DNA from: a virus
Direction: 5' to 3' (one strand)
DNA length: 64,000 bases
Virus record (IMG/VR): IMGVR_UViG_3300010160_000025
Coordinates: 62,001-126,000 of that record
The position numbers and the translations under genes were made by a program. Positions 5,351 through 40,836 of the stretch are shown here, piece after piece (within the stretch, counting starts at the first letter, position 1; each line of letters opens with the position of its first letter). The notes beneath the pieces were generated by a model. The model ran no database searches, was not told where the DNA came from, and saw only the letters and a list, made by a program, of their open reading frames with translations.

Positions 5351-8300
5351 CTATTTATAAACCTGGCCAGCTTTCTTGCTGGCGATTGTATCCAAGTATC
5401 TTTTGGAAGTGTCTTCAATTGTGACTAGTGAAGCTACATTACTATTTAACGTATCTAGCTTGTTGCCAAGGTCAGTTAAGATTCCTTCTTGAGTCTTGCT
5501 TCTGAGTTCTTCAAATTTTGGAATAAACTTATTAATGAAACTTTCGTTAAAATCTTTAAAGGCTTTGCTTAGTCCCTCAACACCTTCTTTGATGTTTTTA
5601 AGTCCTTGTTGATCTAATTTTTGGAAGCCATCTTTACTGAGTTTTAACTGTTCCGATAGCTGTCTTAGCTTGGTAGTACCGTCCGCTAGGCTGACTAGTT
5701 GTTCTTTACTGAATGAAAAATCTTTAAGATCAAATCCGGTAGTTGCCTGTTTGAACGCATTAATTGCTTGTGCTGTGGCATTTATGTTAGCGGCCTGTGT
5801 ACCCAGTGCTGTTATTGTGGTAGTAAAGTCTGGTAATCGTTTAGTTAGTGTTTCAAAACTGCTAGTTTGATCATTAGTCATAGACAAATTAGCCAGTTTC
5901 ATACCATCAATTGCTGTCTTAAATGCAGTAAACCCAGCGGCGGCGTTCTGTAATTTTGGACCTAAAACTGCCATTTGTTGTAGTGGCCCTGTTTGATCTC
6001 CGGCAAATATACTACCAAGACCTTGACTTATGCCGCTTAAGAATCCAGGATTAAATCCGTCTAGTGCTTTCTTGATTGCTTCAACGCCTGCGGCTGCGGC
6101 TGTCATATTTGCTGCCGGTATATTAGCAAGTTGTTTTACACTGTCTGTTGCTACCCTAGTTCCTTCAGTTTTATATTTAGAAATAGTGTCAATGATTTTA
6201 CTAATACTGTCGCCAATTGCTGTAATTGATCCAATAATAACTGACCCAATACTTTTAACTACTGTAGCAATACCGTTAAAGATAACTTCAAAGCCGTCTT
6301 TAGCATTGGTAATTGCAGTGCCTACATCTTTCATTACTGTACCGACTGCTGTGCCAAATGCTACTACTACCGGTGCTACGCCTTCGAGTATTCGCTTTAC
6401 CATTGTGCCAAATTTTTCAAATCCAGGACTTGCCGCTTCAAATGCTAGTGATAATGCATAAACTGCCGCGGTAACTGCCGCTAATCCTATCAGTGATGCT
6501 GGATTAGCAAATGCCGCAAGGCCGCCTGCTAAACTAGTCAATCCTGCACCCATCCCTCCACTTGCGGCTGCTCCGCCTGCGGCTGCGGCTCCACCGGCCA
6601 TCCTGCCGCCAATACCGCTTAGTAATCCACCGCCAACTTTAAATGCGGCCCATACTGCAAATAGTGCTAGTATACCTTTGATGCCTGCATTTCTAATGTC
6701 GTCATTATCCCATAGTGCTGTAAATCCTGATACTATTCCAGCTTTTATTCCTGGCCACATAGCTGCCATTGCTTCACCTATAGCTATGCCTATCTTTTTC
6801 ATTGCAAGTTCTGTGAGAGTTGCTATTTGTTTGCCCTCGCCATCGATTGTATCTTCTCGTTTTAGATCAAAAATATTCATTAATATATTTTCGTAGAGAT
6901 TTTTCATTGCTCCTGACCAACCAAGTGCGGGATTCTGAACATCAGTTAAAAACTCGTTAAGTGCTGTTAGAAAAGTTTTAAACCCGGCTGTGATACGATT
7001 AAGGATATCACCTAAACTAGTACTACCACCTTTAGAAAAATCATCCATCATTTTTTTAATATTTTTAAAGAAATCACTTTTTATAAATGTTGATTCCAGA
7101 GATCCTCTAAAATTATTAATAGTTTCTGAGAACTGTTGATAAAAACCTGTTAATGTGTCATTTTTTGCGGCGGCGTCTGCTTCTTTTTGTAACTGCTCTG
7201 CATTTTTAGTTGCCCTGCTAGCAATCTCTGCTATGGCCGCATATGCTGTTTTAAATCCTGGAATATTATCCATCTGTGCTTTTAATGTAGCGGCATACTC
7301 AGGCCTTTGAAACTGTTCCATCTTTTCTCGTGCCTTAAGAATCATTGAATTCATTTTTTCATTAACGTCTCCGCCGGTATCAGTAAAGTCTTTCATAGTT
7401 TGCATCAATTCAGGTGCCAGCGCATTTAATGCAATACCGTCAGACGAATTAATAAATCCTCGAGCGCCTTCTAATAATGCTTCGGATCCAATACCAAACG
7501 AGCTGGTAATTTGAGCCATACCAGCCATAAATTTTTCTTTATCTTTTCCTTGAAATCTATTAGCCAGTGCGGCAATATCTATTTGCTTACTTAATGCATC
7601 TGCTTTTTTAGCTAGCTCGCCTCTGCTAAGACCTGTTGCGGCAGCGGCCTTGTTTAACTCTATAGCAAATCTTCCGGATGCTTCTCCTAGTTCTCTAGTA
7701 TCAAGTATACGGTCTCGTCCTGCTCGACTGTTAATATTAGAATATGAAATTAAACTATCGTTAATCTCGTCAATGCTGAATCCCATACCTAATAGTTTTT
7801 TGCCAGTATCACCTTGACGGAAATCTTTACTAAATTTACCAAATGCCACAGCTCCCTGTGATACCGTGCCGCCAAATAATGCCATTGTCTCAGCATTATT
7901 TTTTACCAATGCAGTATATCGATCAAAACCCATTCCAGACTCTGCTGCCGCTAATCGCATGGCATCTATACTGTTTCCAAAGTTAGCACCCACTTGGGAA
8001 AGTTTGCGGAACTCATCAATATTTTTGTCTATAAATGCCGAAAGTGTGTGTACTAATCCGCCAAGGTATCCAAATATACTTGGTAACTTTGATAAGTGTG
8101 TAGTAAAGTCGCTAACTCGTTCGCCGCCGGTTAGTAATTCTTTGCTAAGGTCCAGCATTACACTAGCAGTACCGCCTATTATATTACCAGCAAATCCTAA
8201 CAGCTTACTTGTAGCATCTGCAACTGCGCCTGCAAATTTACCAACAGCATCGCCAGCTTTGTTAAAAGCTGTGGTAGTATTAGATGCTGCCTGAGCAGGA

Positions 8301-8458
8301 GTACCTGCTGTGCTACCACTCGAACTGCCACCGCCTGAGCCGGTACCGTTAGATTTGTTAAATGCTTCTAATAATTTTTGAAGTGTGGCTTCGCTTGCCG
8401 CGTTGATCAGCTGTACTTCTTGATCACCAATTTTACCAGTTACTGTGGTATCTGCCAT
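5351..8458 (-). CDS. Tail length tape measure protein (gp29-like)
   Basis: A 1035-residue protein with the usual look of a phage tape measure: long Ala/Gly/Lys/Asp helices broken by very hydrophobic Gly/Ala stretches, notably about residues 63-110 and 597-690 (a run built of GGGLLSGIGG and AAAAGGAAASGGMGAGL blocks). The tape measure fixes tail length and is ejected through the tube. It lies beside and divergent from the tail assembly chaperone gene (8534), the chaperone-tape-measure pairing conserved across tailed phages, though here in opposite orientation. It is larger than T4 gp29 (590 aa), predicting a longer tail. There is no lysin or transglycosylase motif. The start at 8458 has TTAGGTG upstream. 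Confidence 0.85.
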   Translation of the reverse strand: MADTTVTGKIGDQEVQLINAASEATLQKLLEAFNKSNGTGSGGGSSSGSTAGTPAQAASNTTTAFNKAGDAVGKFAGAVADATSKLLGFAGNIIGGTASVMLDLSKELLTGGERVSDFTTHLSKLPSIFGYLGGLVHTLSAFIDKNIDEFRKLSQVGANFGNSIDAMRLAAAESGMGFDRYTALVKNNAETMALFGGTVSQGAVAFGKFSKDFRQGDTGKKLLGMGFSIDEINDSLISYSNINSRAGRDRILDTRELGEASGRFAIELNKAAAATGLSRGELAKKADALSKQIDIAALANRFQGKDKEKFMAGMAQITSSFGIGSEALLEGARGFINSSDGIALNALAPELMQTMKDFTDTGGDVNEKMNSMILKAREKMEQFQRPEYAATLKAQMDNIPGFKTAYAAIAEIASRATKNAEQLQKEADAAAKNDTLTGFYQQFSETINNFRGSLESTFIKSDFFKNIKKMMDDFSKGGSTSLGDILNRITAGFKTFLTALNEFLTDVQNPALGWSGAMKNLYENILMNIFDLKREDTIDGEGKQIATLTELAMKKIGIAIGEAMAAMWPGIKAGIVSGFTALWDNDDIRNAGIKGILALFAVWAAFKVGGGLLSGIGGRMAGGAAAAGGAAASGGMGAGLTSLAGGLAAFANPASLIGLAAVTAAVYALSLAFEAASPGFEKFGTMVKRILEGVAPVVVAFGTAVGTVMKDVGTAITNAKDGFEVIFNGIATVVKSIGSVIIGSITAIGDSISKIIDTISKYKTEGTRVATDSVKQLANIPAANMTAAAAGVEAIKKALDGFNPGFLSGISQGLGSIFAGDQTGPLQQMAVLGPKLQNAAAGFTAFKTAIDGMKLANLSMTNDQTSSFETLTKRLPDFTTTITALGTQAANINATAQAINAFKQATTGFDLKDFSFSKEQLVSLADGTTKLRQLSEQLKLSKDGFQKLDQQGLKNIKEGVEGLSKAFKDFNESFINKFIPKFEELRSKTQEGILTDLGNKLDTLNSNVASLVTIEDTSKRYLDTIASKKAGQVYK

Positions 8459-8483: not shown

Positions 8484-8491
8484 TATAAATA
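8484..8491 (+). promoter_or_regulatory. Canonical T4-type late promoter TATAAATA
   Basis: An exact TATAAATA followed by C. With T4 geometry, transcription would start near 8497, about 37 nt before the GTG start of the chaperone gene and upstream of its GGAG ribosome site. It should be read by RNA polymerase carrying gp55. Confidence 0.8.
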
Positions 8492-8511: not shown

Positions 8512-8519
8512 TATTTATG
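8512..8519 (-). promoter_or_regulatory. Probable late promoter for tape measure and portal
   Basis: The minus strand reads CATAAATA followed by A, a one-base variant of the T4 late box. A start near 8506 would give a leader of about 48 nt before the tape measure ATG at 8458. It faces the plus-strand late box at 8484-8491. Confidence 0.5.
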
Positions 8520-8533
8520 TGGAGTTAAACTCA

Positions 8534-9391
8534 GTGGAAAATCAAACATTAAACCCGTTAAAGAAGTACTTTAGACAGCCCAAGATCTATATCAAGTTGC
8601 CCAGCAGTGGCAATTTTTATCCTCCAGGATGTTTAGAAAAATCTGAAAACGGAGAGTATCCTGTTTACGCTATGACTGCAAAAGATGAGTTGGTCATGAA
8701 AACTCCCGATGCTCTAATGAACGGACAAGCAACTGTAGATGTTATACAAAGTTGTTTTCCTAGTATCAAGAATGCTTGGCAAATTCCTAGTGTTGATATG
8801 GACGCAATTTTAGTTGCAATCCGTCTAGCTACCTACGGTGAAAAATTAGATATTACTATAACTATTCCGGTAATTGAAGACTCTAGAACATTTGAATTAG
8901 ATCTACGTCTAGTACTTGACTCGTTATTAAATGCGGCTTATGATAACGAAATTCAAATTGGTGAAGATCTCAAAGCCTATGTTAGACCTTTAACGTACAA
9001 AGAGTTTACTCAGACTGCAATTAAAACTCTAGAAGAACAACGTATTTTTAGTATTGTCAATGATGACAACATGGAAGATACTAGGAAGATGGAGTTGTTT
9101 AATGCGGCTTTTAAAAAGTTAACTGATATCAATGTTGACATGGTCACTAGCAGTGTTGTTAAGATTGTGACTCCAGATGGTGAAACTAGCGATCCTGTAT
9201 TCATTAAAGAATTTATTGACAATGCTGACAAAAGTTTCTTTAAAGCTATAATGGATCACCTTGAGATACAAAAGAATAAGTTTGCAATACCTGTACAAAA
9301 AGTTGCTACCACGGAAGAGGATCAAGCAGGTGGTGCACCTAAAATGGTTGAGATTCCAATTACTCTGGACGCCGCAAGTTTTTTCGCGTAA
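8534..9391 (+). CDS. Tail assembly chaperone, short form (gpG-like; gp26 position)
   Basis: This 285-residue product has the plan of T4 gp26 and lambda-gpG-type chaperones: an N-terminal FRQPKIYIKLPSSGNFYPPG strand motif, a middle helical region, and YVRPLTYKEFTQTA near the centre. Such proteins bind the tape measure during tail assembly but are absent from virions. I chose GTG 8534 because GGAG (8521-8524) lies nine bases upstream; an earlier in-frame GTG at 8519 would overlap that site. The frame ends at TAA 9389-9391, two codons after a TTTTTTC slippery heptamer that can shift ribosomes into the next frame. It is divergent from the tape measure gene. Function is inferred from context plus the frameshift signal. 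Confidence 0.8.
   Translation: MENQTLNPLKKYFRQPKIYIKLPSSGNFYPPGCLEKSENGEYPVYAMTAKDELVMKTPDALMNGQATVDVIQSCFPSIKNAWQIPSVDMDAILVAIRLATYGEKLDITITIPVIEDSRTFELDLRLVLDSLLNAAYDNEIQIGEDLKAYVRPLTYKEFTQTAIKTLEEQRIFSIVNDDNMEDTRKMELFNAAFKKLTDINVDMVTSSVVKIVTPDGETSDPVFIKEFIDNADKSFFKAIMDHLEIQKNKFAIPVQKVATTEEDQAGGAPKMVEIPITLDAASFFA
9379..9385 (+). promoter_or_regulatory. -1 programmed ribosomal frameshift site (T TTT TTC)
   Basis: Six T then C, in phase as T TTT TTC in the chaperone frame. This is a canonical X XXY YYZ heptamer. After a -1 slip the ribosome reads TTT TTT CGC GTA AGG and continues to 9615, while the zero frame meets TAA two codons later. The -1 frame is open from well before the heptamer. I see no strong downstream stem-loop or upstream Shine-Dalgarno-like stimulator. 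Confidence 0.85.
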
Positions 9392-9615
9392 GGCTCTTTA
9401 CTATCCCACTTGAAGATGCTCTCCGGATGGTGGATCACATAGATAATGAAGCCAAAAATTTCAAATTAGAATTATATAAATTAGCGTGGTATATGAGAGG
9501 TGCGATTTCTATGGAAGACGCATTTTATCTTACCTACGAAGATAGAGAAATTATTGGAAAGATTGTTGAAGACAATCTTGAAACAACTAAGAAAAGTGGA
9601 CTGCCTTTCTTTTAA
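9385..9615 (+). CDS. Frameshift extension of the tail assembly chaperone (gpT-like; gp51-like)
   Basis: This is the second exon-like part of a -1 frameshift product. Fused to the first 284 residues of the gene starting at 8534, it adds 76 residues, giving about 360. The segment reads through LFTIPLEDALRMVDHID and ends SGLPFF; it is helical, with a MEDAFYLTYEDREIIGKIV core resembling the short gp51-type proteins of marine T4 relatives. An independent start at ATG 9427 is possible, but no ribosome site precedes it (CTCTCCGG). The open -1 frame and the heptamer favour fusion. Its stop overlaps the stop of the convergent gene at 9612. Confidence 0.75.
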   Translation, partial: RVRLFTIPLEDALRMVDHIDNEAKNFKLELYKLAWYMRGAISMEDAFYLTYEDREIIGKIVEDNLETTKKSGLPFF

Positions 9616-10815: not shown

Positions 10816-10823
10816 TATTTATA
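10816..10823 (-). promoter_or_regulatory. Canonical late promoter TATAAATA
   Basis: The minus strand reads TATAAATA followed by C. The predicted start is near 10810, giving a leader of about 20 nt containing AGGAA before the ATG at 10790. It separates the low-complexity virion gene from the upstream hairpin-rich region. Confidence 0.8.
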
Positions 10824-25368: not shown

Positions 25369-28300
25369 ATGGCATTCGATAACAACCAACAAGAATCAGC
25401 GTTACCTATTGGCGACAATAATAAAAGAACGTCATTAGATTTTCTTCCCAAGTATTACAGAACTTCCGTAAATCAAAAGTTCTTGAGTGCTACAGTTGAT
25501 CAAATGATCAACGAGGGAACTGTTGGAAAAATAAACGCTTTTATTGGTCGTAAAAACACACCAGCATTTACTTCGGCAGACAAGTATCTAGGAGAAGTTA
25601 GTGTTGATAGAGCCGCATACCAACTTGAGCCGGCTATTGTTTCTAAAGACTCTTTAGATAATGTTACTTTTTTTAAAGATTATAATGACTATATTAATCA
25701 ATTAAATTTCTTTGCAGGAACCACTTTAGATCATAGTAAAGTTAACAGTGAAGAATATTATGCATGGAATCCTCATATAGACTGGGATAAATTTGTTAAC
25801 TATAGAGAATACTACTGGTTACCTAACGGCCCACAACCAATTACAGTTTTAGGACAGTCAACAGAAATTAATAGTACATATACTGTTAAGTTAGTTGACG
25901 AAGTTGATAATATTTCTTATTTGTTTACCCCTGATGGACTAACAGCAAATCCTAAATTTAAATTGTATCGAGGACAAACATATACTTTTGAAATAGATTG
26001 CGAAGACCGTCCGTTTGCATTTAAGACAGTTAGAACAATAGGTGATGCAGATTTATATACTAATGGAATTACAATAAGAAATAATAAAAATGTAATTGTT
26101 CCTTCTACCACCCATGTTAAGAAAGGGTCTATTGAATTTACAGTACCATTAGATGCTCCTAATATTTTGTATTATGTTAGCGAAACTGATATAAACACTT
26201 CAGGATATTTTACAATTTTTAATATTACTGACTCGACACACATAGAAATTGATAGTGAAATTATAGGTAAAAAATATTATACTACCGGTAGCGGAACTAC
26301 ATTATCTAACGGAATGAAGTTGTCTTTTTCTGGACAAGTAACTCCGTCAATATATGCAACTGGTAATTGGTACGTTGAAGGTGTTGGTGTTGCAATTAGA
26401 CTAGTAGCAGAAAAAGATCTTGAAACACCGTCAGCATATACTTCTGATTTAGAAATTGAATTTGATAATGAAAATTTTGATACACAAGGATTTGACGTAA
26501 ACAATAATTTCCCTGCAAGCAAAGATTATATTGTTATTAATAGAAGCAGTGCAGATAGAAATCCCTGGAGTCGTCATAATCGATGGTTTCACAGAAATTT
26601 AATTGAAGCATCAGCATCAGCAAATAATCAACCGTTAATTTTAGATCAGAATGCAAGAGCTAAACGCCCAATCATTGAATTTAACTCAAATGTTCAATTA
26701 TGGAATTTTGGTCGAATTGCTAAAAAAAATGTAACTTTAGTTGATACATTTACTGAAGATGTATTTTCTACAATTGAAGGTAGTTACGGATATAATATTG
26801 ATAAGGTTAATCTAGTTGAAGGTATGCGTGTATTGTTTACCGCAGACACTGACATTAGAGTTTCAGGAAGAATATTTACAGTAAGTTTTATAACACATTT
26901 GGGACAACGCAGAATTACACTATTGCCTACAGATGATACTGACCCACAAGCCGGCGAAACTGTTCTAGTAACAGAAGGAAGTAGTTATAGAGGTACCATG
27001 TTCCATTACATGGACGGTACATGGATGCAAAGCCAAGACAAGACTACTATAAATCAAAGCCCATTATTTGAAGTAGTTGACCCTACAGGAACTAGTTATG
27101 GAAATACAACAAAGTATCCTGGTACTACATTTAAAGGAACAAAAATATTCAGTTATCAAACAGGCACCACATACGATACTGAATTAGGGTTTGATATTAC
27201 ATATAGAAATATTGGCAACTTTGGAGACATTGTTTTCAATTTTAATCTTCATACTGACAAACATACCTATCAAAGCAGTACAAATCTAGTAGAACCGATT
27301 GATATAGAACTTGGTTACCTGCGTATTAATAATACGTTAACTTCTTATGATCACGCCAATGGGTGGACTATTGCTAATACAAAAACTAAACAATTTGTTG
27401 TTAGACAATATGTAATTGATCAAGTACGTAATATGTTTTTAATTGATGTATACGCAGACAGTGGCCTATTAACTGATTTAACAGTTAAAGTATATCTAAA
27501 CGGACATAGAAAATACGATACTGATTATACAATCACTGTTATTAATAAGAAAGCCTATGTTGAATTCTTTAAAGATTTATCTGTTGATGATGTATTAATA
27601 GTTAAAACAAATTCTTCCGCACCAAAAATTAATGGCTATTTTGAATTTCCTTCTAATCTAGAACACAATCCTCAAAATTTAAATTTAGACACTTTTACTC
27701 TAGGTGAAATTAATAATCATGTAAGTTCAATTGCAGACAATATTGACAAGTTTATTGGTACAATCCCTGGCTCTGCTAGTCTTCGAGATTTAGGAAATAT
27801 TACTCCGTTAGGAACAAAGATTGTGCAACATTCTGCACCACTGTTACCTATAGCATATCATATTACTAATAAAAATTATAATGTAATTAATGCATTAAAA
27901 ACAGCCAGACTTGATTATGCAAAATTCAAAAGAAATGTATTACGCAAAGCAACTGATTACGGATATGATGGCGTAACAAGAATTCACTTAGATTTAATTT
28001 TAAAAGAAGTGGTTAAGGACTTTACAAAAGATAGTCCGTATTATCTAAGCGACATGATACCTGCAGGTCCTAATTTTATTTTTGAACAAGAAATAATTGA
28101 TAACTCAATTACTGAATATCCATTAACTTTTGATTTTAATCTAACCACTGTTAGTGAACGTGCTGTACTTGTTTACGTAAACGACGAACTATTAGTTTAC
28201 GGTAAAGATTATGAATTTATTGACGTTAATTTTGTAAAAATCTTATCAACAATTGCGTCTGGCGACAATTTAAAAATTGTTCAATACGGAAAAACGGACG

Positions 28301-31300
28301 GCTGTTTCTTGCCGCCAACTCCGACAAAATATGGATTGTATCCTAAATTTGAACCACAGATTTTTATTGATACTACCTATCAAAATCCAACTAAAGTTAT
28401 TCAAGGCCACGACGGTAGTATAACTATTGCGTTTAATGATTTTAGAGATGATTTATTATTAGAATTTGAACGTAGAATCTATAACAATATTAAAATTGCA
28501 TATGATACAAAGTTATTTGATATCTATGATTTTGTTCCGGGGTACAATAGAACTACTGATCTAACATTCGATGATATTAATAACATTATGGCAGGAGATT
28601 TCTTGCACTGGTCAAATTTAATAGCTGATGATTATACCAAACACTCTTTCTTTGTACGTAGTAATCCAAAAACCTACAACTACCGAGAATTTAGATCATC
28701 TACTGGTACAGAACTTCCAGGATTTTGGAGAGGTATATTTAAATTAGTATACGATACTGATCGACCACATACACATCCCTGGGAAATGCTAGGATTAAGT
28801 ATTAAACCAACATGGTGGGAAACTACCTACGGTCCGGCACCATATACTAGCAATAACTTAATTCTATGGAATGATTTAGCTGCCGGTATAATTAGAAATC
28901 CTAGTACTAATTTTGTTAAGAACACTAAGTTTGTAAGACCACAGTTGTTATCAATGTTGCCGGTAAACGAAGACGGCGAACTACTAGCACCTAGCAATAT
29001 TGGTATTATTGACGGCTACACATCTTCATTAATTGAAGGAGAGTTTAGGTTTGGAGACCAAGCTCCTGTCGAATCAGCATGGAGACGTAGTGCAGAATAT
29101 CCATTTTCTTTAATAACAGCGTTAACTATACTACGACCTGCGCAAGTATTTTCCAGCTGTTTTGATCGTGTTCGACAATACAGAGATGATACAAATCAAT
29201 TAGTTTATAAAGTTACTAACGGAAATTTAAGATTTAATGTTACCAATTTAATTACTCCTAGCACCGCAGATAGTACATCAAGAGTATATACTGCTGGCTT
29301 AATAAACTATATTACTGATTATATTATTGGAAGACAGTCTCTTTCAGAAATTCCTGTTTATAAAAACGAATTAACAAATTTAATAGTTCGCTTATCAAGT
29401 AAACTTGGTGGATTTACTACTAAAGAAAAATTTAAATTAATATTAGATAGTCGTAATCCTTTAAACACAGGCAATGTGTTCATTCCTGAAGAAAATTATA
29501 ATATTATACTTAATACCAGCAGTCCAGTGTCGTCTGTTGATTATAGCGCAGTAATTATAGAAAAAGCAACAACCGGATTTATTATTAGAGGTTATAATAA
29601 ATTTTTACCAGCATTTAAATATTTCAAACCATTAATTATTAATAATGACGCTGAAATTAATGTAGGCGGTGTATCTGCTAGTTTTACTACTTGGATTGCT
29701 AATCAGTATTATACTAAAGATAAAATTGTATTTTTTAATAATCAATATTATAGAGCAACAGTATCACATCAAGCATCATCAGTATTTGAAATAAAATATT
29801 TTGCTAAGTTGCCGTCGTTGCCGTTAACTGGCGGTAGACAAATTGTTATTAGAACAAAATTTAATGATACAGTTTCTACATTACATTATGGTGCTGAGTT
29901 ACGAACTATTCAAGAAGTAGTTGATTTTCTATTAGGCTACGGTGCTTATTTAAAATCAATCGGCATGCTATTTGAAAATTTTAATTCTACCATCAGAACA
30001 ATAACAGATTTTCAAACTAGTGCAAAAGAATTTGCATTTTGGACTACACAAAATTGGTCACTCGGCGCAGTAATAAGTGTAAGCCCGTGTGCTGAAGAAG
30101 TTAAATTTAATCAAAAATATTCTGTAGTTGACAATATATATGACAATTTTTATGAGTATTCAATATTAAAACAAGACGGTGCGGCGCTGTCTTCATTGTA
30201 TACAGGTAATACTAGAGAAGGTAACCTATTCACACTATCACCTAAAAATACTGCTGATGGTATATATCATGCTACTTTAAATTTAGTACAAAAAGAACAC
30301 GTATTAATTTTAGATAACACTACTATATTCAATGATGTGATTTATGATCAGATACAAGGATATAGACAAGAACGTATCAAAGTGGTTGGTTATAGAACAA
30401 CTAACTGGAATGGCGATTTTGATATTCCTGGATTTATTTACGATCGTGCAATAGTTAAATTTTGGAAAGTATGGACTGATTATAAATTAGGTGATACTGT
30501 TAAGTACAAAGAATTTTATTATAGTGCAAAGGCTAATGTTCCAGGCAGCGAAACGTTTGACTACTCTGAATGGAATAAATTAGAAGCTAGACCAGAACCT
30601 AAGTTAATTCCTAACTGGGACTATCGAGCCAATCAGTTTCCTGATTTCTACGACTTAGATACTGATAGTTTTGATTTAAACCAGCAAAAATTTGCACAGC
30701 ATCTTATTGGCTACCAAAAGCGTCAGTATCTTGAAAATATCATTAACGATGATGTAAGCCAATACAAGTTCTATCAAGGATTCATTACTGAAAAAGGCAC
30801 TGAAAATAGTTTTGCTAAATTGTTTGATGCTCTAAGTACTAGCACTAAAGAAAGTTTAGAGTTTTATGAAGAGTGGGCAATCCGTGTTGGACAGTACGGA
30901 GCCAATGCCGGCTTTGATGAAGTTGAGTTTAGACTGGACGAGGTTAAATTTTTAATTAATCCTCAACCAGTTGAGCTGGTAAAATCTATTGATAATTCTT
31001 TATTAGATTTTGTTTATAGAATTTTACCTGACCAAGTTTACTTAAAGAGTAAAACATATTCACACAGCCCATTTGAAACACATCAGTTGTCAAATTATTA
31101 TGTATCAACTGCGGGATATGTTAATGCTGAAGATGTTGAATACAAATTAAACACTATAGAAGAAATATTTTCTGTCAATATAAACAAATTAAATGACGGA
31201 TATTATTTCTGGATTGCTAGCGATAAAAATACTTGGAATGTTTATAGATTTACATTATTTGAAAACTTAGTTAGAAAAGTTTCAATTATACAAAATACTA

Positions 31301-34300
31301 TTCGAATCACACTAAACAGGGTTGTTGACACTGATATTAATGTTGACAGTTATATTGGCATTAATAATTCTATAGCAACGTTAGAAGGATTTTATAAAGT
31401 CACCGCGGTCGGAGTTGACTATATTGAATTTGATAAACCAAAAATACTTAACACAGCAGATACTGTTGGGTTAACTTTGAATTTATATAAGTTTGTATCA
31501 GTGCGAGTACCGTCAATTGAGATTATTAATAATCTAGGAATAGCTTCAAAGAAAAACGGTGATCTAGTATGGGTCGACGGAGTTGACAATCAATGGACAG
31601 TTTGGAAATATCAAAACGAGTATAATTTAACAACAGTTTCAAATAACAAAACAAAGTTTGGTATTAATGTATCTGTAAATGAAGCTAGTACAGTAATGAT
31701 AGTCTCAATAGAAAACAGTATGCTATATTATACTAGACCTACTGCTAAGTCTAATTGGGCGTACAGAGAAGAGCTAAGTCCGGTTACTACACAGGATGCA
31801 AATAATCCTAATCCAACAATATTATTAACAAATAATTCTTTTGCTTCGTCAACGTCCGTAAGAAGTGACGGAGCTTTCTTGGCAGCAGGTGCTCCTGCGG
31901 CAAATGCCGCACCATTAGTTGTAGGAACAACTACATCAAATGGTAACAGGCTAGTATTATCGGCTGGCACTACTGCTAATTTTATTATCAACGGCCCAAT
32001 TGTATTTTCAAATACTACACTTGGTACTATAGTTGCTGGCAAAACATATTATGTGTCACAAATTATAGACCCAATACGTTTTACAATATCAGAGACTCAG
32101 GGCGGCCCAACTTTTGTGTTAGAAAATCGTTCAGGAGCAATGCCAGTATATGCTAATCACGGATACGTGGTTTTATATACACGAAACGCCAACGGATATT
32201 ATGTATTTTCAAATTTAGTAACCGCACCTACTAAAACAAATAATCAATTTTTTGGTCAGAAGGTAGCAGTAGTTGGAGACAAATTATTTGTAGCATCAAA
32301 AGGCTCTGCAACTGTTGCACCATCTTTAACTGTTTACTATATTTCAAAACTTGTAGCAAATGCACTTGATCCTGCGTTTGTTAGCAGTAGCGCGACAGTT
32401 GGAGCACCAGTAGTGTTTACATTAGGGCATGACTTGCTAGACATGTCAGTGGCCGCTAACGGAAACGTTATCCTTTCTTTTAGCAACAATTTATCTCGAG
32501 GCAATGATACAATTCGTATATGGAATTATTCTAATAATTATGAATTTAATAAAGATGTACAAACTATAGAATCTCCATTACCAGCAAAATCTAGTTTTGG
32601 CTCTACTATTGCAGTATCTAAAGACGGCGGCAAACTAGCAATCGGATCGCCAACATATTCTAATGTACATTTAAATGAAGGCGCAGTTTCGGTATACTAT
32701 AATATTCCTTCTGCATTTACTGCATGGACTGTTACATTACCGGGAGTAACAACTTCTAGTACAACCAAAATAACAATTGAACCTGGAACAAAAACATTTA
32801 CTGTACGTAAAAGCGGTACAGGTTTATTATTAAATGCGGTAGCAACTTTTGGTACTTTAAGAGCAAATCCGGGAATTGCTAATGCAGGTTCTAAATACGC
32901 GGTAGATGATATTGTTTATATTTCTGGCGGCGACGGCAAAGCAACTTACAAGGTTACACAGGTTAATCCAACTACAGGAGCAGTAGTTGCTGGAGAATTA
33001 TTAACTAGAGGTACAAATTATAATTCTAATCCGGTGTCTGTAACTATTCCAAAGCCTTTAAATATTTTAGAATTACAACGTGTTACTATTACACATGACT
33101 TGTCTAATTATATGGTTGGAGTTGTAACTTCTTATGACGATGCTACTGCTACTCTTGTTGTTAATGTTAAGGAAGCATATACTCCTGGAGAATATGTACT
33201 CAAAGAGCAATTAAGTAATCCTTATAATAGAGGCAGTGAGTATTTTGGATCAACTGTTAAATTTAATACAGTTGGTGATCAGTTGGCAATTACCAGTGCA
33301 GGCGGTCGACAATTAGCACACACAAAGTTTGATAATAATAAAACTGTCTTTGATCTAGATGCTACTACGTTTTTAGAAACTGAATTAGGATCTGGTAGTG
33401 TAATGTTATATGATCACTATGAAAATAAATTTATTTTCTCTGACAGTTTAGACGTTGGTGTTGCAGTTGGTTCTAATTATGGCTCTGCTATTGCTATGTC
33501 TGATAGAGTATACATTAGTGATTACAATACATTAACTGGTGCAATACACGAATTTTATTCTGAAAACAAATCTTGGTATAAATTTAGAACACCGGGGCAA
33601 TTAGTTAATATAGATAAAATTAAATCTGTATTCTTATATGACATTGAAGACAGTAGTATAGTTACGTATCTTGATATTGTAGATCCATTGCAAGGTAAAA
33701 TTTTAAGCATTGCTGAAGATGAATTAAAATTTAAAACATATTACGACCCTGCAACTTATTCTGTCGGAGATGATACGGTCGTAGTTGATCCTCTAATGTA
33801 TTGGAAAGAAAAACATGTTGGACATCTATGGTGGGATTTAAGTAGTGCTAAATTTATTGATCCTAACCAGGGTCCTGTATTGTATAAAGCCAACTCTTGG
33901 AACACTTTATTTGAAAATCAATTAGTAAATGTATACGAATGGGTTGAAAGCGAATACACTCCCGCTGAGTGGGATAAACTAGCCGATACTGAAGCAGGGT
34001 TGACTCTTGGCATTAGTGGTGTTAGCAAATACAAAAGCACTTCATACAGCGTTAGTAAAACATTTGACACAATTAGTAAAACATTTAAAAATATATACTA
34101 TTTCTGGGTTAAAAATAAAGTTACAGTGCCTGATGTAGACGGCAGAACAGTTTCTGCTAGAGATGTTGCAAATTATATTAGCAACCCTAAAAATATGGGA
34201 GTCAGCTACATATCGTTCCACGGCGCAAATCAGTTCTCACTAGTTAATTGTAAGGATCTAATTGCCAGTAGGAAAGTAGCGTTAAATGTTCGATACTGGA

Positions 34301-37300
34301 TTATTGATAATTTTGAACAATCAAATATTCATAGCCACTATCAATTATTATCTACAAGCGATATTGACAAACCAATTAACAAGTATGTTGAACAAAAATG
34401 GATTGACAGTTTGTCCGGATTTGATAGTTTAGGTAATGAAGTCCCTGACTCAAAACTTCCAGTTAAATTAAAATACGGAATTCAAAGTCGCCCAAGACAA
34501 AGCATGTTTGTTAATAGGATTGAAGCACTTAAACAGTTTGTTGAACGTGTTAATTCTGTAATAGCAACACAATCTATTATAGATGATGTTGATCTTACTA
34601 GTTTAAATTCTAAAGACGAATTACCAAGTCTAGGATCGGGCAAGTATGATTATGAAATTAGTTCTTACAGTCAAATTAGATTTGTAGGAACAAACGAAAT
34701 TGTTAGAGCAGTACTATCTCCTGTAATTGAAAACGGAAAACTTGTTAGAGTTGTTATTGTAACTTCAGGAAAGGGTTATATCAATCCGCCATTAGTAACA
34801 ATTAATGGAATAGGTACCGGAGCAAAAATTACCACCGTACTTGGTTCAAAAGGACAAATTATTTCAGCAACAGTTGATAAACCTGGTATCGGATATCTTG
34901 AATCAACTACGCTGTCTGTACGTACACTATCTGTATTAGTCACTAAAGACGAAACTGCAAATAATAGATGGTCGTTGTATACATGGAATTCTTTAAAGAA
35001 AACTTGGTTTAGAGAACGTACTCAAACATATGATACTACTCGTTATTGGAAATACATTGACTGGTACTCTGCAGGTTACAGCGAGTTTACTAAACTAGAT
35101 CATATAGTTGATTTTGCTTATCAACTACCTAGTGCTAATATTGAAATTGGCGAAATAGTAAAAGTTAATAATCAAGGTATTGGCGGATGGGTACTATTAG
35201 AAAAAGTTGACAATCAAAATGTTCTTGAAACAACAGTTAATTATAAAACTGTAGGACGACAATCTGGTACAATTAAATTTACTGATAGTTTATATCGTTT
35301 TGCAGAAAATGCAGAAGGGTTTGACGGACCAACTTTTGATTCGTTTGTGTTCGATGATCAACCAAAGACTGAATTAACAATTATCCTTGACACAATCAAG
35401 AACATAATTTTTGTTGATAATTTAGCAAAAGAATATAAAGAATTATTCTTTGCTAGTTTAAGATATGCATTTAGTGAACAGAAATCAATTGATTGGGCAT
35501 TTAAAACAAGTTTTGTAAGATCAAAACATAATCTTGGACCGTTAAAACAAAAACCAACATATCAAAACGACAACTTACCTAGCTATCAAGAATATATCAA
35601 TGAGGCTAAACCTTACAGAAGTAAAATTCGTGAATTTGTTAGTACATATGAAATTTTTGAACCAACCGGAAGCCAAATATCTGACTTTGACTTACCTCCA
35701 AAATATGATCAAACTACTAATAGTGTGATACCGTTTCAAACTAGTATTTCGGATGGTATATTAACATACAGCAGTAATGATATTAAACAATATCCATACA
35801 GCGATTGGTTATACAGCGCAGGATTTAATTTAACAGAAATACGAATAGTAGATGGCGGCTCTGGTTATATAACTGCTCCTGTTGTAACAATTGAGCCAGC
35901 ACCTTCTACTATTACTGCAAAAGCATATCTATCGTCTGGCAGAGTTTCTACTATTGTTATTAACGATCCGTTCGGAGAAAACTTCTTAGTTACTCCTATT
36001 ATCAAAATAAATGGGTCAATTAATGACGGCGGCACTCCTGCTAGAGCAGTGGCTATATTATCTAATAGCTTGGTACGATCTACAAAGATTGGTATCAAAT
36101 TTGATAGAGTATCACCGGAATATACATTTGGATCAATTGTAGCTAAAGAAACATTTATTGCTAGCGGTTCTAAAACTAGATTTGAATTAGCTTGGCCAGT
36201 TGATGTTATCAAAACACGTACTACAGTGTCTGATAATAATGGAGAAATATTAGGAGCTGATTACATAGTATTCAACGAACTTGATCCAAGTTACTCATAT
36301 GACCGTTATAAAGGAATATTGCAATTTAATTCAGCACCTGCAAACTTATCTAAAGTTGTTATTGAATATCATAAAAATATCAACTTATTAGATGCTGCCG
36401 ATAGAATTAATTATTTTTATAACCCGGCCGCAGGCCAATTAGGGCGCGATCTAGGACAGTTAATGCAAGGTGTAGATTACGGTGGCGTTGAGATCACTGG
36501 CATTGGATTTGATGTTGGATCTGGCTATGATGCATTACCGTGGTTTACTACAGGTTACGATCAGTTTGATCCCGATTTTACTGATTTCTTAATTAAGAGT
36601 GATGGTATTGCTAGATCGTTTACATTAAATTATGCTCCTACTGAAATTGAATATATTAACGTATACTGGACCGGCAATCGAAGTTATATTACTGCAACGC
36701 CGTTAGGAACAGGCAATGTTGATAGTTCATCTTTATCTGTTACCAATGCTAACGGAATTAAAAAAGGACAATCAGTTTCAGGAATTGGTATACAATCAAA
36801 TACCACAGTCTCGGATATTGTTGGCGCTAAAATAACTTTGACTAAAGCATTAGTGCAGGCAGCATCTGGTGTATACTCATTTAGAACAACAGAAACATTC
36901 AATAGACGATTAGACGATCCTAATTATATTGTAGTTAAACCATTGCTAGATAGACTAGTTGCTGTTAAAAATGAAAAACTAACTATTGCAACTAATTTAG
37001 CTACAGCACAAGAAGATAAAGATTTTAACATTGCATTACTTGCTGACTTAACTAGTCAGCTTCAGTTGTTATTTGATGCTAGAACTGCCGCTGAAGCAAT
37101 ATTGCTTCAAGCGCAAATTGCATTAGATAATGCAATTGTTCTTGGTGATCCACAAATAATATCTCATGCACAAGAAGTGAGAGATGCTAAACAATCAATC
37201 TATGATAATTTAAATTCAGATTATGTTGTTACTGAACAAGATGCAGTCACTGCTCAGTATGCTAGAGATAATGCAATTGCATTAATTGCCAACGGTTCTA

Positions 37301-40300
37301 GCCTCATAGCCGCATATGATATAACAAGCAACATTGCTTCTGTACAAATATTTGATATTTTTGGAAGATTAATTTTACCGAGCGGAGTAAGATTAGTTGG
37401 CCAAAGTATTAGAATAACAGGAACATTAAGTCACGGATCAATCCAAGGATATGTTTCTGGAACAACTTATTATATAGGCGAAGTTATAAACAACACTAGT
37501 GTACGTTTAACTAGCACTTATGCTAAAGCATTGGCTACTGGAAATGATAGATTTGATATTGTAACAACAGCCGGAGTAATAACTCCCGGAGCTACAGTTA
37601 CTATTAACGGAAAAATTAATACCGTACAACACGAAATTGAAAACTTCCCAAGTATTGTTAATCAAGATGCTATTATGAATTCCTTCATTGGTGACGGTGT
37701 AAGCACTGGACCTATTGTAATTCCTAACCATGCAACATTTACAGCAACATTTGCCGCAGACATCCAAGCAGGCGATAGTATTATTCTAAGAAAGAATACA
37801 AGTGACGGCAGTTTTAAACCTAGTGATATTCAATATGATACTCAAATATTTGGTGGAGATTTTGCTTATGTAAGTGCCACTGGATTAGCGGCTGAAGATA
37901 TTAACGTTGACGGTGACGGATTTGTTACTCCAACATCAAGTCATGCACCTGAAGAAGTAGTTACTGGTCAAGTAGTAGATACTGTTGATATTACAGTATA
38001 CCATAAGATTGGTGACGGAGCCCCTATTATTAATACCGTGCAGTATCTAACAGCAGACGATAATATATTTGACATTGGCCAACGCCCAGGAACATCGACT
38101 TCTGTTATTGTAAAAGTTGATGGAAATATTATCAAACAAAATGTAAATTATACAGTTAATTTTGCTAGCCAACAAATAGAATTAACTACTAGTTATGCAC
38201 CGGGATTAGAAGTTGTTATAACTAGTATTAGTCAAAACGGTTTAAATATTCTAGATTTAGATTACTTTACTGCCGACGGAACTACCACTGAATTTGTATC
38301 GACTGCAAGATGGACTACTGAAACTACTGCGTTTGTTACCGTAGACGGCGAAGCTACAGCAGTGACAACATTTAAAACAGACAGTCAATATACACTAGTT
38401 GGAACTATTGGTATACGTTTTGAAGTTGCACCGCCAGCTGGTGCAATTATCAACTATACAATTCTAGGATCAGCAGTTGACTCTATTAGTAAAGTACAAA
38501 AACAAACAATTGTACATAACGGTATTGATACAATTTACGAATTAACTCGTAATCCAGAATTTGCTAAACCTTTAGCTAATAATGTATTAGTAGTAACTAA
38601 CGGCAGTATTTTAAGACCAGCTGATACTTTCTATTTTATAGTAGCAGGCACAAGCAGAACATATACTGTTGACAGTTCAAAATATGCATTTAATACTGTA
38701 GACAGTAGCACAGTTATTGTAGCAGTTAACGGCGTAAATATTGTACAGGGTGTTGATTACTTTTGGATTCCGGTAAACAACCAACTTAAAGTTAAAAAAG
38801 GTGTTGCAAAAACCGGAGATAAAATTTCATTATCAATAGTTGCAAATTCTGACTATAATATAATTTCTACAGATAATAATTTATCCATTGAAGTAATTGG
38901 AACATATGCTCCTAACACAGTGATTACAGTGATTACTTTTAGTAATCATGATATACTTGAAATTGAACGCGAGCACGATAAGACTACTTCTGCATCAGCT
39001 TTAGTTCCCGGAGCAACAGAATACTATCGATACAATCAATTAGCCGGCGGTAGAATTAAATTACGTAGACCTGCAATTGGATCTCAGTATGTGTGGATCA
39101 CGTTAAACAGAAAACTATTAACACCTAATGTTGACTATGCTCTAGAGAGTAATATGAACTATATTAGCTTTACGCCAACTAGAGTTTTCTTAGAAACTGA
39201 TATTGTAGATATAATTGCATTTAGTAATAAAATAACAAAAAGTAGTTTTGGATATAAAATATTTAAAGACATGTTGAATAAGAATTCTTATTCAAGAATT
39301 GATGACGCATCGTCGACTACATTATCTAAAACATTAAATTATTATGACAATGTTATAGAGTTAGTTGACGGATCAGTATTGCCAGAACCTAGTGCTAGAT
39401 TAAATAAACCTGGTGTAATTTTTATTGACGGAGAACGTATTGAGTATCTAAGAAAAGATGGTAATATTATTCGACAATTAAAACGCGGTACTTTAGGTAC
39501 AGGCATTAAAGATATTCATGCTGAAGGTACTCTAGTAAGAGATCAAAGTATTATTCAATCGGTTCCTTACAAAGATGAATTTATTTCGTCAGTAACAGTA
39601 TCGGACGGGTATACTAATGGCGCAAGCATTTATACAAATTCTCCTGGACTAACAGTAACATCAATAGTATTTCCTGGAGAAGATCAAACAGCCGATTTAT
39701 CAGGAAGTCAAACAGTAACAGTTACCGGTACTGGTTTTAAAATCAATGTTAAGGTATTTGTCGGTGATGTTGATTGTGTAGTTAACAGAATAAGCGATAC
39801 AAAATTAACTTTTGTAACTCCCGCAAAATCTGTTGGAGCATACGATTTAATCATATATAATCCTCCAATTACATCGCTACCAAGATTTACAACAACTACA
39901 CTAACAGGAACAGTAACTGGTACAAGTTTAACTACTACAATTACCGGATTATCAAATGCTAATAGCACATTACGTGTTGGTATGGTATTATCTAAAATCA
40001 GCGGCATTGGCGCAATTGGCGGCCTAACAGTAATCACTGAAGTTAATAGTGACACACAAATTACTATTAAGTCAACTACTGCAAATACCTACGGAGCAAT
40101 AGAGTTTACTGGAACAGAGGATGTAAAAACTATAACTGTTCCGGGAATAGTTAGTACTGCTGGTTTAGTATCTACGGTCACATTAACTGGATCTTATGTA
40201 AAAAATGGCATAACAATTCCTAATGCTACCAGCGGTCTAAAAGTAGGACAAATTGTTAGCAAAGTTTCTGGAATAGGAAACTTTGGCACACTGGCCATTA

Positions 40301-40836
40301 TAACATCAATAGATAGTTTAACAACATTTACGGTAACTGCAACAACTGCAAATACAGCAGGAGAGTTAATTTTTAATATTAACAATCAAACACCAACTAG
40401 CCGAGTAATTGCTAAAGCAATCAAGTATTTGAAAATACAGTTAGACTTTAAACTAACTGTTCCTGTTGTTGATAACACTTGGTATAGGAAAACAATACCG
40501 TCTGCATTTAATCAGTGTAACGATGTAGAAGTATTTGTTGCAGGCCGTAGACTGCGTAAGACAACATATACTATTTGGAATCCTAATCTAGGGCCAGATA
40601 GTCCTAGCGGAGATGTACAATACGAAGCTGAATTTTCAGTAACTTCTGCAACAAACCAGCAGCCAATGCAAATTCGTTTAACTGAAGTACCGGAAGCAGG
40701 GCAGTATATTGTAGTTCAAAAGCGCATAGGTCAAGCATGGACTACAAATGGTGTTAGTTTAGCTGATTCTGGATCCGACCCGGCTAAATTTATTAGAGCA
40801 ACTTACGCTCTGCTACCAGATAAGAATAAAGTATAA
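25369..40836 (+). CDS. Giant multidomain virion structural protein (5155 aa)
   Basis: One uninterrupted frame of 15.5 kb, placed directly after gp6 where T4 has gp7, gp8 and gp10. The N-terminus (DFLPKYYRTSVNQKFLSATV near residue 25) is a type I associate with large virion proteins of marine T4-like phages. Visible modules in order: two CBM5/12-like stretches (about 1441-1488 and 1699-1741); FG-GAP/beta-propeller-like repeats (about 2160-2730); Gly-rich GYINPPLVTI-type repeats (about 3107-3184 and 3488-3551); a coiled coil (about 3854-3978); an IPT/TIG Ig-like domain (about 4762-4834); a duplicated module with V(S/T)GIG and STTANT(Y/A)G signatures (about 4844-5004); and a YD-type C-terminus (NDVEVFVAGRRLRK). 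A fibrous or baseplate-peripheral role is likely; exact function unknown. Confidence 0.85.
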   Translation: MAFDNNQQESALPIGDNNKRTSLDFLPKYYRTSVNQKFLSATVDQMINEGTVGKINAFIGRKNTPAFTSADKYLGEVSVDRAAYQLEPAIVSKDSLDNVTFFKDYNDYINQLNFFAGTTLDHSKVNSEEYYAWNPHIDWDKFVNYREYYWLPNGPQPITVLGQSTEINSTYTVKLVDEVDNISYLFTPDGLTANPKFKLYRGQTYTFEIDCEDRPFAFKTVRTIGDADLYTNGITIRNNKNVIVPSTTHVKKGSIEFTVPLDAPNILYYVSETDINTSGYFTIFNITDSTHIEIDSEIIGKKYYTTGSGTTLSNGMKLSFSGQVTPSIYATGNWYVEGVGVAIRLVAEKDLETPSAYTSDLEIEFDNENFDTQGFDVNNNFPASKDYIVINRSSADRNPWSRHNRWFHRNLIEASASANNQPLILDQNARAKRPIIEFNSNVQLWNFGRIAKKNVTLVDTFTEDVFSTIEGSYGYNIDKVNLVEGMRVLFTADTDIRVSGRIFTVSFITHLGQRRITLLPTDDTDPQAGETVLVTEGSSYRGTMFHYMDGTWMQSQDKTTINQSPLFEVVDPTGTSYGNTTKYPGTTFKGTKIFSYQTGTTYDTELGFDITYRNIGNFGDIVFNFNLHTDKHTYQSSTNLVEPIDIELGYLRINNTLTSYDHANGWTIANTKTKQFVVRQYVIDQVRNMFLIDVYADSGLLTDLTVKVYLNGHRKYDTDYTITVINKKAYVEFFKDLSVDDVLIVKTNSSAPKINGYFEFPSNLEHNPQNLNLDTFTLGEINNHVSSIADNIDKFIGTIPGSASLRDLGNITPLGTKIVQHSAPLLPIAYHITNKNYNVINALKTARLDYAKFKRNVLRKATDYGYDGVTRIHLDLILKEVVKDFTKDSPYYLSDMIPAGPNFIFEQEIIDNSITEYPLTFDFNLTTVSERAVLVYVNDELLVYGKDYEFIDVNFVKILSTIASGDNLKIVQYGKTDGCFLPPTPTKYGLYPKFEPQIFIDTTYQNPTKVIQGHDGSITIAFNDFRDDLLLEFERRIYNNIKIAYDTKLFDIYDFVPGYNRTTDLTFDDINNIMAGDFLHWSNLIADDYTKHSFFVRSNPKTYNYREFRSSTGTELPGFWRGIFKLVYDTDRPHTHPWEMLGLSIKPTWWETTYGPAPYTSNNLILWNDLAAGIIRNPSTNFVKNTKFVRPQLLSMLPVNEDGELLAPSNIGIIDGYTSSLIEGEFRFGDQAPVESAWRRSAEYPFSLITALTILRPAQVFSSCFDRVRQYRDDTNQLVYKVTNGNLRFNVTNLITPSTADSTSRVYTAGLINYITDYIIGRQSLSEIPVYKNELTNLIVRLSSKLGGFTTKEKFKLILDSRNPLNTGNVFIPEENYNIILNTSSPVSSVDYSAVIIEKATTGFIIRGYNKFLPAFKYFKPLIINNDAEINVGGVSASFTTWIANQYYTKDKIVFFNNQYYRATVSHQASSVFEIKYFAKLPSLPLTGGRQIVIRTKFNDTVSTLHYGAELRTIQEVVDFLLGYGAYLKSIGMLFENFNSTIRTITDFQTSAKEFAFWTTQNWSLGAVISVSPCAEEVKFNQKYSVVDNIYDNFYEYSILKQDGAALSSLYTGNTREGNLFTLSPKNTADGIYHATLNLVQKEHVLILDNTTIFNDVIYDQIQGYRQERIKVVGYRTTNWNGDFDIPGFIYDRAIVKFWKVWTDYKLGDTVKYKEFYYSAKANVPGSETFDYSEWNKLEARPEPKLIPNWDYRANQFPDFYDLDTDSFDLNQQKFAQHLIGYQKRQYLENIINDDVSQYKFYQGFITEKGTENSFAKLFDALSTSTKESLEFYEEWAIRVGQYGANAGFDEVEFRLDEVKFLINPQPVELVKSIDNSLLDFVYRILPDQVYLKSKTYSHSPFETHQLSNYYVSTAGYVNAEDVEYKLNTIEEIFSVNINKLNDGYYFWIASDKNTWNVYRFTLFENLVRKVSIIQNTIRITLNRVVDTDINVDSYIGINNSIATLEGFYKVTAVGVDYIEFDKPKILNTADTVGLTLNLYKFVSVRVPSIEIINNLGIASKKNGDLVWVDGVDNQWTVWKYQNEYNLTTVSNNKTKFGINVSVNEASTVMIVSIENSMLYYTRPTAKSNWAYREELSPVTTQDANNPNPTILLTNNSFASSTSVRSDGAFLAAGAPAANAAPLVVGTTTSNGNRLVLSAGTTANFIINGPIVFSNTTLGTIVAGKTYYVSQIIDPIRFTISETQGGPTFVLENRSGAMPVYANHGYVVLYTRNANGYYVFSNLVTAPTKTNNQFFGQKVAVVGDKLFVASKGSATVAPSLTVYYISKLVANALDPAFVSSSATVGAPVVFTLGHDLLDMSVAANGNVILSFSNNLSRGNDTIRIWNYSNNYEFNKDVQTIESPLPAKSSFGSTIAVSKDGGKLAIGSPTYSNVHLNEGAVSVYYNIPSAFTAWTVTLPGVTTSSTTKITIEPGTKTFTVRKSGTGLLLNAVATFGTLRANPGIANAGSKYAVDDIVYISGGDGKATYKVTQVNPTTGAVVAGELLTRGTNYNSNPVSVTIPKPLNILELQRVTITHDLSNYMVGVVTSYDDATATLVVNVKEAYTPGEYVLKEQLSNPYNRGSEYFGSTVKFNTVGDQLAITSAGGRQLAHTKFDNNKTVFDLDATTFLETELGSGSVMLYDHYENKFIFSDSLDVGVAVGSNYGSAIAMSDRVYISDYNTLTGAIHEFYSENKSWYKFRTPGQLVNIDKIKSVFLYDIEDSSIVTYLDIVDPLQGKILSIAEDELKFKTYYDPATYSVGDDTVVVDPLMYWKEKHVGHLWWDLSSAKFIDPNQGPVLYKANSWNTLFENQLVNVYEWVESEYTPAEWDKLADTEAGLTLGISGVSKYKSTSYSVSKTFDTISKTFKNIYYFWVKNKVTVPDVDGRTVSARDVANYISNPKNMGVSYISFHGANQFSLVNCKDLIASRKVALNVRYWIIDNFEQSNIHSHYQLLSTSDIDKPINKYVEQKWIDSLSGFDSLGNEVPDSKLPVKLKYGIQSRPRQSMFVNRIEALKQFVERVNSVIATQSIIDDVDLTSLNSKDELPSLGSGKYDYEISSYSQIRFVGTNEIVRAVLSPVIENGKLVRVVIVTSGKGYINPPLVTINGIGTGAKITTVLGSKGQIISATVDKPGIGYLESTTLSVRTLSVLVTKDETANNRWSLYTWNSLKKTWFRERTQTYDTTRYWKYIDWYSAGYSEFTKLDHIVDFAYQLPSANIEIGEIVKVNNQGIGGWVLLEKVDNQNVLETTVNYKTVGRQSGTIKFTDSLYRFAENAEGFDGPTFDSFVFDDQPKTELTIILDTIKNIIFVDNLAKEYKELFFASLRYAFSEQKSIDWAFKTSFVRSKHNLGPLKQKPTYQNDNLPSYQEYINEAKPYRSKIREFVSTYEIFEPTGSQISDFDLPPKYDQTTNSVIPFQTSISDGILTYSSNDIKQYPYSDWLYSAGFNLTEIRIVDGGSGYITAPVVTIEPAPSTITAKAYLSSGRVSTIVINDPFGENFLVTPIIKINGSINDGGTPARAVAILSNSLVRSTKIGIKFDRVSPEYTFGSIVAKETFIASGSKTRFELAWPVDVIKTRTTVSDNNGEILGADYIVFNELDPSYSYDRYKGILQFNSAPANLSKVVIEYHKNINLLDAADRINYFYNPAAGQLGRDLGQLMQGVDYGGVEITGIGFDVGSGYDALPWFTTGYDQFDPDFTDFLIKSDGIARSFTLNYAPTEIEYINVYWTGNRSYITATPLGTGNVDSSSLSVTNANGIKKGQSVSGIGIQSNTTVSDIVGAKITLTKALVQAASGVYSFRTTETFNRRLDDPNYIVVKPLLDRLVAVKNEKLTIATNLATAQEDKDFNIALLADLTSQLQLLFDARTAAEAILLQAQIALDNAIVLGDPQIISHAQEVRDAKQSIYDNLNSDYVVTEQDAVTAQYARDNAIALIANGSSLIAAYDITSNIASVQIFDIFGRLILPSGVRLVGQSIRITGTLSHGSIQGYVSGTTYYIGEVINNTSVRLTSTYAKALATGNDRFDIVTTAGVITPGATVTINGKINTVQHEIENFPSIVNQDAIMNSFIGDGVSTGPIVIPNHATFTATFAADIQAGDSIILRKNTSDGSFKPSDIQYDTQIFGGDFAYVSATGLAAEDINVDGDGFVTPTSSHAPEEVVTGQVVDTVDITVYHKIGDGAPIINTVQYLTADDNIFDIGQRPGTSTSVIVKVDGNIIKQNVNYTVNFASQQIELTTSYAPGLEVVITSISQNGLNILDLDYFTADGTTTEFVSTARWTTETTAFVTVDGEATAVTTFKTDSQYTLVGTIGIRFEVAPPAGAIINYTILGSAVDSISKVQKQTIVHNGIDTIYELTRNPEFAKPLANNVLVVTNGSILRPADTFYFIVAGTSRTYTVDSSKYAFNTVDSSTVIVAVNGVNIVQGVDYFWIPVNNQLKVKKGVAKTGDKISLSIVANSDYNIISTDNNLSIEVIGTYAPNTVITVITFSNHDILEIEREHDKTTSASALVPGATEYYRYNQLAGGRIKLRRPAIGSQYVWITLNRKLLTPNVDYALESNMNYISFTPTRVFLETDIVDIIAFSNKITKSSFGYKIFKDMLNKNSYSRIDDASSTTLSKTLNYYDNVIELVDGSVLPEPSARLNKPGVIFIDGERIEYLRKDGNIIRQLKRGTLGTGIKDIHAEGTLVRDQSIIQSVPYKDEFISSVTVSDGYTNGASIYTNSPGLTVTSIVFPGEDQTADLSGSQTVTVTGTGFKINVKVFVGDVDCVVNRISDTKLTFVTPAKSVGAYDLIIYNPPITSLPRFTTTTLTGTVTGTSLTTTITGLSNANSTLRVGMVLSKISGIGAIGGLTVITEVNSDTQITIKSTTANTYGAIEFTGTEDVKTITVPGIVSTAGLVSTVTLTGSYVKNGITIPNATSGLKVGQIVSKVSGIGNFGTLAIITSIDSLTTFTVTATTANTAGELIFNINNQTPTSRVIAKAIKYLKIQLDFKLTVPVVDNTWYRKTIPSAFNQCNDVEVFVAGRRLRKTTYTIWNPNLGPDSPSGDVQYEAEFSVTSATNQQPMQIRLTEVPEAGQYIVVQKRIGQAWTTNGVSLADSGSDPAKFIRATYALLPDKNKV

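Follow-up and report, generated by a model that had tools for sequence, protein, structure and literature searches.

The stretch of virus DNA analysed here (64,000 nucleotides, called the window below) carries on its forward strand a gene of the T4 gp26/gp51 protein family, followed in the -1 frame by an overlapping extension and flanked by a divergent gene that probably encodes the tape measure protein. The features of the locus are as follows.

5351..8458, reverse strand: 1035 aa, probably the tape measure protein (match to phrog_1204, tail protein, at E=5e-9, and its neighbours in relatives).
8484..8491, forward strand: putative T4-type late promoter octamer TATAAATA, by exact match.
8521..8524, forward strand: Shine-Dalgarno-like GGAG, 9 nt 5' of GTG 8534, by sequence.
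8534..9391, forward strand: short form (TAC-N), 285 aa, from PF12322 and phrog_150 matches, relatives and a fold match.
9379..9385, forward strand: slip heptamer T TTT TTC, in frame 0 as read from GTG 8534 and in X XXY YYZ phase, conserved.
9385..9615, forward strand: -1 frame extension (TAC-C), 76 codons and a stop, with a mostly helical model and pN/pS below that of the other frames.
9389..9391, forward strand: frame-0 stop TAA, one codon past the heptamer.
9392..9395, forward strand: GGCT, perhaps the 5' arm of a weak stem, with partner AGCC at 9450-9453; a matching stem covaries in a sister subclade.

The octamer TATAAATA has three exact copies in the 64 kb, at 8484-8491 on the forward strand and at 5352-5359 and 10816-10823 on the reverse strand, and each of them sits just 5' of an ORF. 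The divergent tape-measure ORF is faced by CATAAATA at 8512-8519 on the reverse strand.

The ORF at 8534-9391 matches PF12322 (T4_baseplate) in a Pfam scan at E=7e-11, exceeding the curated cut-off, and phrog_150 (baseplate hub) in PHROGs at E=1e-14. Its predicted structure, a mixed alpha/beta fold with pLDDT 84, matches models of T4-like 'baseplate hub assembly proteins' in a viral structure library. The short form is thus a member of the T4 gp26/gp51 protein family. PF12322 and phrog_150 also take in T4 gp26 and T4 gp51, the latter with an extra C-terminal part. The -1 extension was folded separately from the short form and gave a mostly helical model, also with pLDDT 84; taken alone, it found nothing significant in Pfam or PHROGs scans.

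The junction between the two frames reads GCC GCA AGT TTT TTC GCG TAA, so that the heptamer lies in slip phase in the frame of GTG 8534, as the first-pass annotation had stated. The -1 frame, likewise as described there, is already open 5' of the heptamer and continues for 76 codons past it to a stop ending at 9615. The predicted fusion would have about 360 residues and about 40 kDa, close to the size expected in that annotation. Among the 37 long ORFs of the 64-kb window (19,221 codons), which is the scope of this count, T TTT TTC occurs in phase only once, at 9379-9385, and Phe-Phe pairs occur 32 times.

The heptamer and its phase are also kept in relatives. It is identical in every member of the window's clade with a readable junction, and is present in nine jumbo-phage genomes (Phosso, Atu_ph07, Paride, 121Q, RaK2, GAP32, Vibrio 2.275.O, XaC1 and Kaldavass). 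The same T TTT TTC site is shared by P-SSM2, S-PM2, KVP40 and phiW-14, and T TTT TTT takes its place in HTVC008M, Cr30 and phiM12. Searches of viral contigs with cyanophage and 121Q queries gave 51 distinct junctions, in 50 of which TTTTTTC adjoins the stop; the single exception, the 121Q-type L159, has its stop further on. Since Phe-Phe at the slip site is invariant at the protein level, part of the heptamer conservation could be driven by the protein, which would not account for the codon choice. Such a heptamer was not found at the junctions of Salmonella phage Vi01, Rhodothermus phage RM378 and Sphingomonas phage PAU. In Vi01 (L064) the gp51-like C-terminal part lies in the -1 frame next to A ATT TTC, which is not a canonical slip heptamer. 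The extension is in the +1 (or -2) frame in RM378 (L073), with C TTT TTT TGG at the junction, and in PAU (L074), which carries TAAGGAGCGTATG together with an ATG and a ribosome site of its own.

A further question is whether the -1 frame could have a start codon of its own. In the window a single ATG, at 9427, lies 5' of the extension's conserved core. There is no start codon between the 0-frame stop and this position, and no Shine-Dalgarno sequence is evident 5' of the ATG, in agreement with the earlier view that no ribosome site serves an independent start at 9427. Moreover, this ATG is absent from L009, L011, L012 and other relatives. The stretch 5' of ATG 9427 looks as if it were under selection in the -1 frame: its pN/pS in 18 clade sequences is 0.61, with 0.99 and 1.16 for the two remaining frames, and in ten window-side sequences 0.47, with 0.96 and 1.79; since the values pool pairwise counts from sequences that are related, we claim a consistent direction and no significance. 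The first three residues of the -1 frame, FFR, are invariant in 20 sequences. With a -1 frame that seems to be under selection in a stretch holding no start codon, -1 frameshifting is by far the best reading of this locus. We consider it highly probable that this PF12322 tail chaperone is made in a short and a long form through a -1 frameshift at T TTT TTC. This reading also gains from the covarying stem of ten relatives and from the published precedent in T4-like phages, both treated below; weighing against it are the lack of a significant stem in the window, the overlapping ATG of a few relatives and a tape-measure ORF that is divergent, unlike that of lambda.

According to this mechanism, most ribosomes would terminate at TAA 9389 and release the 285-residue short form, and a fraction would slip back by one base on T TTT TTC (9379-9385), producing the fusion of about 360 residues with its mostly helical extension. 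On the model of lambda gpG/gpGT, the tape measure protein would be the partner of the short form, and tail tube subunits would be brought in by the extension. The analysis establishes the protein family, the slip site with its conservation and the selection pattern in the -1 frame; the slippage, its rate and the chaperone function are inferred.

The alternative that fares best is a second ORF that is a separate gene with its own start, coupled to the end of the first ORF. Several records annotate the second ORF in this way, and an ATG does overlap the stop in four relatives, as ATGA in Phosso, Atu_ph07 and L039 and as TAATG in 121Q. The refuting signs named earlier were looked for: the heptamer is missing from no clade relative with a readable junction, and an overlapping ATG is confined to these few. 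A start codon at the junction is lacking in the window and in most of its clade, translational coupling would not need the heptamer, and pN/pS in the -1 frame is low 5' of ATG 9427. We reject a separate gene as the main reading, and regard it as improbable, because conservation of the -1 frame extends ahead of any start codon. Genes annotated separately that resemble the -1 parts of the chaperone include 121Q gp595 (L004 6831-7040), a Phosso gene (L001 6825-7055), 'gp51' of S-PM2 (L161 7191-7364) and KVP40.0327 (L162 6613-6780).

The -1 frame might also be reached through edited transcripts if RNA polymerase slipped on the T run, which is possible in principle on six T, or on the seven found in some relatives. 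Nevertheless, a run of six T is on the short side for slippage of bacterial transcription, both the ribosomal phase and the final C are preserved in it, and relatives conserve a stem at the spacer distance typical of ribosomal sites, so that we hold this explanation to be very improbable. A sequencing or assembly error, conceivable for a homopolymer run in a metagenome contig, is ruled out for practical purposes, because cultured-phage genomes and many independent contigs carry the same junction.

Having set these alternatives against -1 frameshifting, we return to the RNA signals that could stimulate it. The first-pass annotation saw no strong stimulatory stem, and this is right for the window: compared with synonymous recoding, no significant stem was found 3' of the heptamer over 45, 60, 75 or 100 nt (z=-0.5 over 75 nt, and -0.4 to +0.4 over the other lengths). 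It is not right for the clade, where a covarying stem is present in ten sequences (L029-L033, L037-L039, L041 and Atu_ph07). Its 5' arm begins 6 nt past the heptamer, as GGCTTTTnnn or, in Atu_ph07, as GGCTCTTTGT, and the complementary 3' arm lies about 55 nt downstream. Across these ten sequences the 13-bp helix is paired in 94.6% of cells, and five of its pairs are changed on both sides, a number reached by 1 of 500 shuffles; these counts lean towards a stem, as the set was picked after looking at single-sequence folds. Versions of the helix slid along the alignment have none or one such pair, and RNAalifold recovers most of the helix unaided. When the -1 frame was recoded synonymously 1000 times, z lay between -4.0 and -6.5 in the ten sequences, with 0 or 1 recodings reaching so low a value; the same test gave z=-3.9 for L009, which is close to the window. 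The lack of a stem is peculiar to the window and its closest relatives. Elsewhere, strong downstream hairpins were found in P-SSM2 (z=-5.7) and Cr30 (z=-4.9), and the recoding test showed none in RaK2, Kaldavass and HTVC008M. Cyanophage-type sequences (L059, L060 and L078-L157) have a GGAGGG-like element about 9 nt 5' of the heptamer; the cyanophage downstream hairpin is strong in P-SSM2 and weaker in S-PM2.

We tentatively propose, at somewhat less than even odds, that frameshift sites in chaperone genes across the T4 superfamily retain a single slip heptamer and exchange their RNA stimulators from lineage to lineage. The freshwater/Atu_ph07 sequences would use a covarying stem of about 10 bp or more, 6 nt downstream, and the cyanophages a GGAGGG-like upstream element with a downstream hairpin, neither being evident in the closest relatives of the window. 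If this is so, the ratio of short to long form would have been held while its RNA control was rebuilt. The covarying stem is a concrete candidate for a stimulator and a route to the correct annotation of chaperone genes, and may not have been described before.

The comparison with T4 itself involves two divergent genes in place of one gene with a putative frameshift site. T4 gp26 ends close to the position of the slip site, with gene 26 closing on G TTC TTT GAG without a heptamer, and T4 gp51 continues like the long form. Among 16 whole phage records, T4 (genes 26 and 51) and Campylobacter phage CP81 have two PF12322 genes and each of the other 14 has one. In CP81 (L072, L076) the two copies are in tandem, short then long, which is a T4-like two-gene solution in another arrangement. 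The claim that a short and a long T4-type chaperone, made by -1 frameshifting, replace separate gp26 and gp51 is well supported by the protein family, the heptamer and the apparent selection on the -1 frame.

Profile comparison of the two parts gave a divided answer. It placed the short form with the gp26/gp51 family, and the extension of the window's clade stands at the same position as the gp51 C-terminus with no significant sequence match. The gp51 C-terminus does align with the extension of the cyanophage/KVP40 type (probability 84%, E 7e-6), and the extension of the RaK2-like phages aligns with the extension of the window's clade (probability 97%). An hhalign comparison between the window-clade and cyanophage-type extensions reached a probability of only 2.8%. 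Any homology of the window-clade extension to the gp51 C-terminus would thus be suggested by position only.

In lambda, a short chaperone and its -1 extension lie beside the tape measure gene (PMC5009743). The window shares with lambda gpG/gpGT a short chaperone with a -1 extension adjoining the tape measure gene, and to this extent the lambda-like arrangement seen in the first-pass annotation stands. However, the tape-measure ORF (8458..5351) is on the opposite strand from the chaperone ORF and divergent, and the gene order therefore differs from that of lambda, in which the chaperone gene immediately precedes the tape measure gene in the same orientation. No Pfam TAC family was matched, and neither sequence nor fold gave a significant link to lambda G or T. 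A structural link to lambda G/T was considered and set aside, as neither the model of the short form nor that of the -1 extension had a PDB fold match at E <= 0.001. The viral library returned a match to an annotated tail assembly chaperone of Arthrobacter phage Molivia (E=0.03), which is too weak to use.

The abstract of Vladimirov, Gautam and Davidson (Virology 2022, 566:9-15) reportedly describes frameshifting as conserved across several groups of T4-like phages, with T4 making use of genes 26 and 51. The principle has already been published; the mechanism is very probable in the window. The unification of the T4-type and lambda-type chaperone strategies, put forward in the first-pass annotation, is not new and was already made in that work, to judge from the passages of two papers that cite it (PMC10885494, PMC12846349). 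In the passage concerned, the PRFect paper (PMC10885494) cites Vladimirov et al. 2022 for some T4-like phages that have a short and a long fusion gene and do not use frameshifting, and the Adele paper (PMC12846349) refers to that work with regard to polyT slip signals in TAC-N genes of T4-like phages. A 2016 review still names T4 as the exception (PMC5009743). As far as these citing passages convey it, the T4-like TAC-N/TAC-NC system of Vladimirov et al. 2022 has the same protein family as the window, in a short and a -1 long form in some T4-like phages or in two genes in the T4 group; the window differs in belonging to a jumbo-related freshwater clade. A conserved polyT slip site with an uninterrupted -1 frame has also been described at the TAC locus of Vandenendeviridae/Andersonviridae, in phage Adele (PMC12846349), where the motif is GTTTTT as opposed to TTTTTTC in the window, the likeness resting on the published description. 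For the RaK2/Atu_ph07 group and for the stem we found no published report in a search of a library with few subscription papers.

The explanation published for T4 gp26/gp51, as short and long chaperones of the lambda type, is here extended to a clade related to jumbo phages, where the records of Phosso and 121Q list the -1 parts as genes in their own right and that of RaK2 leaves them unannotated. Elsewhere in the window, the structural module contains a single ORF of 5155 residues (25369-40836, forward strand), which is very long for a phage gene.
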